From NCBI RefSeq assembly GCF_000419525.1, contig NZ_ATTE01000001.1, positions 682,001 through 746,000 on the forward strand: a stretch of 64,000 nucleotides of DNA. The letters are read 5' to 3'. The DNA comes from Leucothrix mucor DSM 2157 (lineage in GTDB: Bacteria; Pseudomonadota; Gammaproteobacteria; Thiotrichales; Thiotrichaceae). The translations under genes and the position numbers were made by a program. This document shows, in pieces, positions 23,516 through 39,297 of this stretch (the first letter of the stretch is position 1; each line of letters begins with the position of its first letter). A model generated the notes under the pieces. That model made no database searches and was not told the origin of the DNA. It saw only the letters and a list, made by a program, of their open reading frames with translations.

Positions 23516-23544
23516 TTGAAGGCTGGAGAATCGGGCTCTATTAT
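23516..23544 (+). promoter_or_regulatory. Promoter of small RNA unit A
   Basis: TTGAAG (23516-23521), exactly 17-bp spacer and TATTAT (23539-23544). The predicted start at about 23551 coincides with the start of the block conserved with unit C. Confidence 0.65.
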
Positions 23545-23550
23545 TCAAAG

Positions 23551-23633
23551 CGTAAGATGATTTCCTCCTCCTTTGCGAAGAGACCTAGTATTTGAAGCCA
23601 CTTTAGGTATTAGGTTCTCTTCGACCTCTTTTT
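23551..23633 (+). ncRNA. Predicted small RNA A with anti-SD motif
   Basis: About 83 nt. The 5' part GTAAGATGATTTCCTCCTCCT is unpaired and identical to unit C over 21 nt (23552-23572). It holds CCTCCTCCT, which can pair with Shine-Dalgarno sequences. The rest is a long hairpin: CGAAGAGA (23576-23583) with TCTCTTCG (23616-23623), extended by seven more pairs around one bulged T, then CTCTTTTT. That is a Rho-independent terminator. A sigma-70 promoter sits at the right distance upstream. No reading frame of note. Function inferred only. Confidence 0.6.
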
Positions 23634-23740
23634 CCATTGTATCACCCCCCACCAAACTTTCTTCAAAATATATTTGTCCAATTATGTGTGTTAAGTGTAC
23701 ATTCATTAATGGTCTGCGATACTTGTGTACAACATCAGAC

Positions 23741-23757
23741 CTAAAGCGACACTTTAG
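23741..23757. repeat. Short hairpin between units A and B
   Basis: CTAAAG (23741-23746) and CTTTAG (23752-23757) form a 6-bp hairpin with a 5-nt loop. Just before it GGTCTG (23711-23716) pairs with CAGACC (23736-23741). Purpose unknown; they could belong to the leader of unit B. Confidence 0.3.
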
Positions 23758-23822
23758 TCAGGTTGGTTTTCGGGATAGCAGCTCGGGATCAGCAGAAGAA
23801 CGACTAAGAAAGAATAGATCAG

Positions 23823-23886
23823 GTGTTCATGATTCCTCCTCCTCGACCATGGGGTTAGATCGCAAGACTATCCCCCTCTGGTTTTT
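23823..23886 (+). ncRNA. Predicted small RNA B with anti-SD motif
   Basis: About 64 nt if it begins at the position equivalent to A and C. It holds TTCCTCCTCCTCGACCA, then a hairpin with CCA/TGG and GGGG/CCCC outer pairs (GGGG 23851-23854, CCCC 23872-23875), one T-T mismatch, three more pairs and a 9-nt loop, then TTTTT. The CCTCCTCCTCGACCAyGGGG segment is shared with unit C. No convincing promoter is seen directly upstream, so it may be weakly expressed, processed from a longer RNA, or decayed. Confidence 0.45.
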
Positions 23887-23998
23887 AAGCAAAGCTTGAG
23901 GGCAGTACTGAAAGTTGGTGGTGTTGGGAATTAGATCCAGCTAGAGAGATTAGCTATTATGAAAAGCAGAGATGCTTTAAAAGAATTTGATATTTAAA

Positions 23999-24026
23999 TT
24001 GATGCGGTGCAACAATTTGATATAAG
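23999..24026 (+). promoter_or_regulatory. Promoter of small RNA unit C
   Basis: TTGATG (23999-24004), 16-bp spacer and TATAAG (24021-24026). The conserved block begins 8 bases after the -10, as in unit A where the gap is 7. Confidence 0.5.
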
Positions 24027-24033
24027 ATAGAAA

Positions 24034-24111
24034 TGTAAGATGATTTCCTCCTCCTCGACCACGGGGATAATGAGCTAGGCCACTTGACTCATTATCCCCC
24101 CCTGGTTTTTT
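24034..24111 (+). ncRNA. Predicted small RNA C with anti-SD motif
   Basis: About 78 nt. It begins with the same 21-nt block as unit A (GTAAGATGATTTCCTCCTCC and one further T). A perfect 12-bp stem GGGGATAATGAG (24063-24074) / CTCATTATCCCC (24088-24099), flanked by CCA/TGG outer pairs, ends in TTTTTT. This is the cleanest terminator of the three. The single-stranded 5' part would expose CCUCCUCCU. Compared with B the stem bases differ but pairing is kept. Confidence 0.6.
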
Positions 24112-24392
24112 ACTTCCTCATCTCCTCATGATTCTGTTCGCAAGGACTAGGCTTAGCCATGTCTGCGATGTGGTAAATTCTATTGGTCTTTTGCTTATGT
24201 GGCAATCTTTTAATGGATAGAAATGACTGTAATTAGGATTAAATTCATTTAAAACGAGACACTAAAGCTGGTGTTTATCCATTCTTCTAAATTTTTTATG
24301 AAAGATGGTTTAGAATTGTTGCGAGTAGGGTCAAATTATTATAAATTGGTGCGGCGCAGCATTTTTGTTTTTCGCTTATCAAATTCCCTCGC
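24112..24392. other. AT-rich intergenic stretch, nothing recognised
   Basis: I see no reading frame, tRNA or strong hairpin here. CTTCCTCATCTCCTCATGATTC near 24113 weakly recalls the CCTCC block of the three units upstream but has no terminator after it. The lipase gene ends at 24393 on the other strand. Confidence 0.4.
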
Positions 24393-38889: not shown

Positions 38890-38965
38890 GGGTGATTAGC
38901 TCAGTTGGTAGAGCGCTGCCCTTACAAGGCAGATGTCGGGAGTTCAAGTCTCTCATCACCCACCA
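38890..38965 (+). tRNA. tRNA-Val(TAC), copy 1
   Basis: A 76-nt tRNA with encoded CCA. The anticodon loop CTTACAA between CTGCC and GGCAG gives TAC. It starts 16 bases after the hup stop. Confidence 0.96.
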
Positions 38966-38979
38966 ATTTTTTAGAGTAT

Positions 38980-39056
38980 GGAGCGGTAGTTCAGCTGGTT
39001 AGAATGCTTGCCTGTCACGCAGGAGGTCGCGGGTTCGAGTCCCGTCCGCTCCGCCA
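38980..39056 (+). tRNA. tRNA-Asp(GTC), copy 1
   Basis: A 77-nt tRNA with encoded CCA; anticodon GTC within CCTGTCACGCAGG. It lies 14 bases after tRNA-Val copy 1. Confidence 0.96.
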
Positions 39057-39098
39057 CTTTGAAAGATTTTAGTAGTAGAAAAAAAGTTTAAAAAAACC

Positions 39099-39126
39099 TT
39101 GCAGTATCGAGTGAAACGTATATACT
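39099..39126 (+). promoter_or_regulatory. Promoter of the second Val-Asp tRNA pair
   Basis: TTGCAG (39099-39104), 16-bp spacer, TATACT (39121-39126), 17 bp before tRNA-Val copy 2. Confidence 0.6.
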
Positions 39127-39143
39127 ACGCCAACTCAAACCAA

Positions 39144-39219
39144 GGGTGATTAGCTCAGTTGGTAGAGCGCTGCCCTTACAAGGCAGATGTCGGGAGTTCA
39201 AGTCTCTCATCACCCACCA
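39144..39219 (+). tRNA. tRNA-Val(TAC), copy 2
   Basis: Identical in sequence to copy 1 at 38890-38965, with encoded CCA. Confidence 0.96.
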
Positions 39220-39220
39220 C

Positions 39221-39297
39221 GGAGCGGTAGTTCAGCTGGTTAGAATGCTTGCCTGTCACGCAGGAGGTCGCGGGTTCGAGTCCCGTCCGCTCCGCCA
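39221..39297 (+). tRNA. tRNA-Asp(GTC), copy 2
   Basis: Identical to copy 1 at 38980-39056. Only one base separates it from tRNA-Val copy 2. Confidence 0.96.

Follow-up and report, generated by a model that had tools for sequence, protein, structure and literature searches.

Putative anti-Shine-Dalgarno small RNAs in multiple copies in Leucothrix, several with a PhaR-type palindrome at the promoter

We analysed a window of 64,000 nucleotides from the genome of Leucothrix mucor DSM 2157, in which three short units carrying an anti-Shine-Dalgarno (anti-SD) motif lie in tandem, and found that this trio is part of a six-copy RNA family. From these sequences, we consider it likely that the family represents trans-acting anti-SD small RNAs (sRNAs) of ∼80 nucleotides, specific to the genus and present in multiple copies, several of which would be repressed by PhaR and released as polyhydroxybutyrate (PHB) accumulates.

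The motif TTCCTCCTCCT occurs three times in the window, each time on the plus strand (23562, 23833 and 24045), against a mean of 0.01 in shuffled windows, and none of 100 shuffles attained three occurrences. This bears out the three plus-strand units, named A, B and C here, that an earlier sequence-only reading of this DNA had proposed. The 21-nucleotide block that it described as common to A and C was also found, as GTAAGATGATTTCCTCCTCCT at 23552 and 24035, with all 21 bases identical. Unit A (23552–23635, plus strand) consists of this conserved 5′ block (23552–23572), a stem at ∼23576–23623 and a T-rich tail, and unit C (24035–24112, plus strand) of the block (24035–24055), a stem at ∼24057–24107 and a T run. 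Unit B (23830–23887, plus strand), of a short subtype, contains an anti-SD segment at 23833–23843, a stem at ∼23845–23883 and a T run, and, counted from the motif onward, agrees with unit C at 23 of 25 bases. The promoter description held for A (TTGAAG-17-TATTAT, 23516–23544, plus strand) and C (TTGATG-16-TATAAG, 23999–24026, plus strand), where the hexamers are present, but not for B, which no recognisable promoter adjoins. A terminator-type hairpin and a T run follow each motif, as had been claimed; the folds of A and C were far more stable than those of shuffled sequences (z = −4.83 and −4.21, respectively), and that of B was less so and marginal (z = −1.82). In the folds of all three units the 5′ segment is unpaired. 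Judged by sequence, the units have an unpaired SD-complementary segment, a terminator and, with none seen for B, a promoter of their own, which are the features of a trans-acting anti-SD sRNA. A generic consensus scan, which ran near chance level (10 promoter-like sites versus 7.1, and 3 terminator-like sites versus 3.8), included the promoter of A and not that of C, and had none of the three hairpins among its terminator-like sites. An open reading frame of 108 amino acids with a TTG start (23573–23899) crosses part of the array region.

In this genome (G000, 5.19 Mb), TTCCTCCTCCT was found six times, and the six places correspond to units A to F. The additional copies, D (C1:4064111, minus strand), E (4992916) and F (4997406), carry the whole RNA, with GTAAGATGATTTCCTCCTCCTCGACCA, a long stem and CCCTCTGGTTTTTT. 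Their neighbours, named by reading the sequence, vary from copy to copy: the terminator of D directly abuts a convergent cca-type gene at its end, E is flanked by genes of urease-accessory/thioredoxin type and of HPPD type, and F precedes an sthA-type gene. The family is both tandem and dispersed in its own genome.

A covariance model matched 7 of 57 genomes, namely all seven genomes of the genus, and none of 29 other genomes of the family or 21 other genomes of the class. With a second model, applied to 369 genomes across the class under strict filters and with 12 candidates scored per listed genome, the own genome was the sole match. The anti-SD block and the terminator, whose conservation in related genomes had been put forward as a check, are thus kept in seven of seven genus genomes. 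We read out 28 units in these genomes, and a further unit that is cut by a run of N (L248) stands outside this number. The alignment comprised 20 units and left out eight of the 28, namely four of B type, the degenerate G001e and G003f, G001a (identical to G004a) and G003d. In this alignment 18 of the first 21 columns were invariant and the remaining three were at least 90% conserved. In the stem, 12 of 15 pairs had changed on both sides, and 88.9% of the cells could pair. The covariation score was 0.480, compared to 0.254 for shuffled alignments; none of 500 shuffles attained it, and structures slid along the alignment scored 0.08–0.16. The covariation of the stem indicates that the units are structured RNAs and, together with the invariant 5′ block, provides strong evidence for an RNA of which the unpaired 5′ segment is the part that selection preserves. 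The earlier proposal of small RNAs is supported by these data.

Copies that are dispersed as well as tandem, and a terminator of D abutting the end of a convergent gene, would also fit a mobile repeat, or attenuators or terminators of neighbouring genes, with no separate RNA genes at all. We regard this as very improbable, because the full copies, viewed by eye, come with their own promoter-like sequence, the neighbours differ among copies, and the unpaired 5′ block is conserved while the stem changes by compensation.

The array itself is also conserved. G003 (contig 24) and G001 (contig 187) retain the order A-B-C, which is decayed in G006 (contig 39), and B belongs to a distinct short subtype at each of the four array loci, including that of the own genome. 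Two further blocks are conserved across these four loci, TTAAGTGTACATTCATTAATGGTCTG between A and B (23690–23717, plus strand) and TTCCTCATCTCCTCATGATTC immediately 3′ of unit C (24114–24134, plus strand). The second block is present a single time per genome in the four array genomes and nowhere in the other three genomes of the genus. From its sequence (TTAAGT..CATT....TCTG), the block between A and B is possibly a promoter for another type of sigma factor, giving a longer transcript of B.

A search of the window against Rfam at gathering thresholds returned only tRNAs, and loose thresholds near the units added only chance-level matches to snoRNA, miRNA and lncRNA families. This is consistent with the earlier statement that the family was not known from gammaproteobacteria. 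The window also contains a tRNA-Val/tRNA-Asp pair twice in tandem (38890–39297). A collection-wide search with TTCCTCCTCCTCGACCA returned at least 118 stretches, which we treated as chance; the 29 that were viewed, with Pseudomonadota titles, resembled coding sequence by eye, and the family model applied to 36 of the stretches gave a best E value of 0.73, likewise treated as chance. Among open-licence papers, we found no report on a Leucothrix small RNA or on a Thiothrix sRNA with polyhydroxybutyrate, and a search combining PhaR, small RNA, polyhydroxybutyrate and phasin gave no paper on this group by title.

We then considered how the copies might be controlled. Units C, D, E and F are each preceded by the palindrome TTGNTGCNNNGCANCAA, which starts at the −35 element. 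It has five exact places in 5.19 Mb, of which four are the promoters of C to F and the fifth lies inside an open reading frame of 719 amino acids; at one mismatch it has 53 places, compared to 12 for the reversed pattern. Unit C has the palindrome as TTGATGCGGTGCAACAA over its −35 element (23999–24015), and the promoter-like sequence of A is devoid of it. Among the 28 units of the genus, nine carry the palindrome in at least 11 of 12 positions and at the same distance within one base (four units belong to G000, three to G003 and one to G002, and a degenerate one to G001). In Sinorhizobium meliloti, the PhaR motif is described, in excerpts of the source, as a palindrome with the centre YGCRNYGCR (PMC12542648); this centre is found in the promoters of C, D, E and F, that is, in four of the six copies of the own genome. 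The gel-shifted PhaR site of mmgR in that source, CAATTGTGCACCGCAGCATTA, resembles the palindrome here (PMC12542648).

The same type of site precedes genes of PHB metabolism. A strict pattern, TGNTGCRNYGCANCA, matches the own genome at 13 places, compared to none for the reversed pattern. Four of these lie before C to F and five before three phasin genes. The phasin genes at C1:22957-23274 and C1:4146297, both of which pass the Pfam Phasin_2 cut-off, have two such places each, and a near-identical phasin copy beside the C1:22957-23274 gene, identified by reading the sequence, has one. Another is found before a short-chain dehydrogenase gene and another in the window at 24347; the last two adjoin a xanthine-permease-type gene and a gene of 216 amino acids, for which no link to PHB was found. 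Phasin genes with the strict pattern in front of them are also present in G003 (two) and G002 (one), and a single one was confirmed in each of G010 and G007, which belong to two other genera. Five of ten proteins tested near strict sites were phasins, the rest being MNHE-type, AhpC-type, a short-chain dehydrogenase and two without a family. Reversed-control counts in the other genomes were below those observed, except in G010 (1 versus 1) and in G006 and G005 (0 versus 0). The phaB promoters of G000, G003 and G002 have a variant, TTTGTGCATYGCAGCAA. The own genome contains one PhaR gene (PF07879, E = 3.3e-27), in which a second domain, PF05233, fell below its cut-off (23.8 versus 27), and beside it lies a PhaC homologue that is below the NCBIfam cut-off (339.8 versus 365.3). 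No match to PhaR was obtained in G001, G004 and G005, whose genomes are 56–69% complete.

The site in the window at 24347 has the sequence TTGGTGCGGCGCAGCAT (24346–24362), and a TATAAT lies nearby on the minus strand, so that this may possibly be an antisense promoter into the array. A minus-strand transcript from here would cross the array antisense and would be GGAGG-rich.

The units could be genuine anti-SD sRNAs of the genus and still escape PhaR, if the palindrome belonged to another regulator or had been carried along with duplicated promoters. In keeping with this, the site is missing in 19 of the 28 units, including A and B, and G006 (99% complete) has PhaR and a PhaC homologue, yet none of its six units, five of which are in tandem, has the site and the strict pattern is found nowhere in its genome; the sites before a phasin-like gene there have other arms. 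However, similar sites stand before phasin genes in G000, G003, G002 and two other genera, with the variant at phaB in three genomes. In addition, over seven promoters (G002a and G001e being left out), the right arm of the palindrome, which is not part of the −35 element, is 95% identical, a figure that is partly circular because the fixed positions were chosen for being recurrent, while the free positions of the palindrome are 41% identical and the remainder of the 60-base upstream stretch is down to 47%. Taken together, we consider an absence of PhaR control unlikely.

The reading we prefer is that PhaR would control copies C to F, together with four or five copies in related genomes, from a site that covers the −35 element. 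Titration of PhaR by PHB granules has been reported for phasin and depolymerase genes of S. meliloti, in excerpts of the source (PMC12542648). By analogy, PHB granules would titrate PhaR and these copies would be derepressed along with the phasin genes and phaB, while copies that are devoid of the site, such as A and B, would provide a basal or otherwise controlled supply. Each RNA is predicted to present the unpaired 5′ segment GUAAGAUGAUUUCCUCCUCCUC, followed by the covarying hairpin of an intrinsic terminator. This segment would complement strong SD sites along with several bases on the side of the start codon. The RNAs would pair through UUUCCUCCUCCU with purine-rich ribosome-binding sites. 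The most likely outcome would be that ribosome binding is blocked on a set of mRNAs, and that translation of these targets goes down as stored carbon goes up. The arrangement suggests that the cell may tune its protein synthesis to its carbon stored as PHB.

To look for candidate targets, we ranked gene starts by duplex energy with the RNA of type D, for which the median over 85 starts was −9.1. The values for phaB (−12.9), phaR (−10.9) and phaC (−8.9) were ordinary to weak. Two phasin starts of G000 paired poorly (−7.5 and −5.9), and a copy of the link from MmgR to phasins is therefore not supported. The start of phaA ranked sixth of 85 in G000 with −17.5, and the same value was obtained in G003; in G002 the pairing is lost (−7.7), and phaA was not found in the stretch of G006 that was examined. 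We also searched four genomes for AGGAGGAAATCAT and obtained 41 places. All 15 exact places are sRNA units, including L248, and one of the 26 places with one mismatch is unit G002a; of the 25 others, 14 were read, and in five of these an ATG stands right after the match. From these results we put forward no gene as a target.

A more local role could also be envisaged, in which the units are mainly sponges or decoys, or act on a neighbour such as the LysR mRNA, and are not general blockers of SD sites. The LysR gene that adjoins the array has GAGGAATCATG from SD to AUG (23364, minus strand), which is an 11-nucleotide complement of CATGATTCCTC in unit B, and its start ranked 8th of 85 by duplex energy. 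Units D, E and F, however, lie far from this gene and beside others, and the motif is fully generic to SD sites. We therefore hold a local or decoy function to be quite improbable.

CcsR/cuckoo-type RNAs carry CCUCCUCCC anti-SD motifs and are in this respect like the units described here. Closer parallels are provided by the alpha-r8 family, as far as excerpts of the published descriptions go. MmgR of S. meliloti, a member of this family, is also a short sRNA, its anti-SD core is unpaired, and it is tied to PHB (PMC12542648, PMC12559287). Its wiring is similar, in that PhaR (AniA) represses MmgR through a gel-shifted promoter site, the counterpart here being a putative PhaR-type palindrome (PMC12542648). 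MmgR differs in being single-copy and alphaproteobacterial, whereas up to six copies are found here (PMC12542648, PMC12559287). As described there, its core UUUCCUCCCU follows a weak 5′ hairpin, while the units here have UUUCCUCCUCCU and no 5′ hairpin in the fold. MmgR is thought in these accounts to act on phasins, while the two phasin starts tried here paired poorly. A Rho-independent terminator, part of the alpha-r8 description, is present here as the covarying stem and T run, but at the place of the 10-nucleotide single-stranded core UUUCCUCCCU the units read UUUCCUCCUC, and the weak hairpin 5′ of the core is missing, the 5′ segment being unpaired in A, B and C. On the published description, the units are therefore not assigned to alpha-r8.

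SisA-D of Caulobacter, also of alpha-r8, comprise four dispersed siblings that contain an anti-SD core and end in a Rho-independent terminator; unlike the copies here, several of which have a palindrome in common in the same position, their promoters have no common motif in the excerpts of that source (PMC12559287). From sequence, the nearest in wiring would be MmgR, and the nearest in copy number and core SisA-D. NmsR of Neisseria likewise comprises tandem sibling sRNAs with predicted anti-SD motifs, which act on central metabolism; these are two in number and under RelA, and no PhaR link appears in the excerpts of that report (PMC5362039). RNAs of alpha-r14 (NfeR1) contain CCUCCUCCC anti-SD motifs as well, placed in three hairpin loops according to parts of the sources, whereas the motif occurs once here, in the unpaired 5′ segment (PMC3927594, PMC10746234).

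Anti-SD motifs were also found in other predicted transcripts that follow PhaR-type sites. The leaders of three of three phasin genes in G003 (L298, L281) and G002 (L299), taken from the PhaR-type site to the start codon, contain TTCCTCCTCCTT. This motif is absent from the leaders of three phasin genes of G000, none of which contains CCTCC, of a phasin-like gene of G006, and of a single phasin gene in each of G010 and G007. A search of 63 genomes of the family for a PhaR-type site combined with GGAGGA gave matches in 8 of 56 genomes outside the genus. All nine of these matches were read, and L217 and L219 resemble an anti-SD RNA; the other seven had no comparable RNA by eye.

L217 and L219 lie in two genomes of another genus, g2 (G019 and G078, respectively). 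The site TGTTGCATTGCAGCA is followed, after ∼15 bases, by an RNA of different design, with TTCCTCTCTCCTCCTCCT in the loop of a first hairpin and CTCCTCCTC in the loop of a terminator hairpin, in which three of 11 outer pairs differ between the genomes by compensation. The folds were far more stable than those of shuffled sequences (z = −5.3 and −5.9). With the motif in two hairpin loops, this RNA is nearer to alpha-r14, as partly described in the sources above, in its layout. It has the appearance of another sRNA family, unrelated to the first and wired in the same way. The strict sites examined in G007, also of g2, all lack the two-hairpin RNA; the g2 search used a fixed spacing, and further cases may thus have been missed.

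The meeting of PhaR-type sites with anti-SD motifs in unlike transcripts raises the odds both for control by PhaR and for a repeated origin of such control. By sequence, three unlike forms can be distinguished in this gammaproteobacterial family: the multicopy sRNA of the genus, the phasin leaders of G003 and G002, and the two-hairpin RNA of g2. We tentatively suggest, with somewhat less than even confidence, that an anti-SD RNA has been put under PhaR repeatedly, as MmgR in alphaproteobacteria and in at least these three forms here; that the forms together act as a translational brake set by storage; and that the sRNA copies may derive from promoter-leader segments of phasin genes.

Copies with and without the operator, a species that has PhaR and no sites, and phasin leaders with and without the motif offer natural contrasts by which the idea is directly testable. 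The system may also be of relevance to the engineering of PHB production. If the proposal is true, small RNAs would link translation to the physical state of the storage polymer outside the alphaproteobacteria, which would suggest that anti-SD riboregulation and the sensing of storage have met repeatedly.
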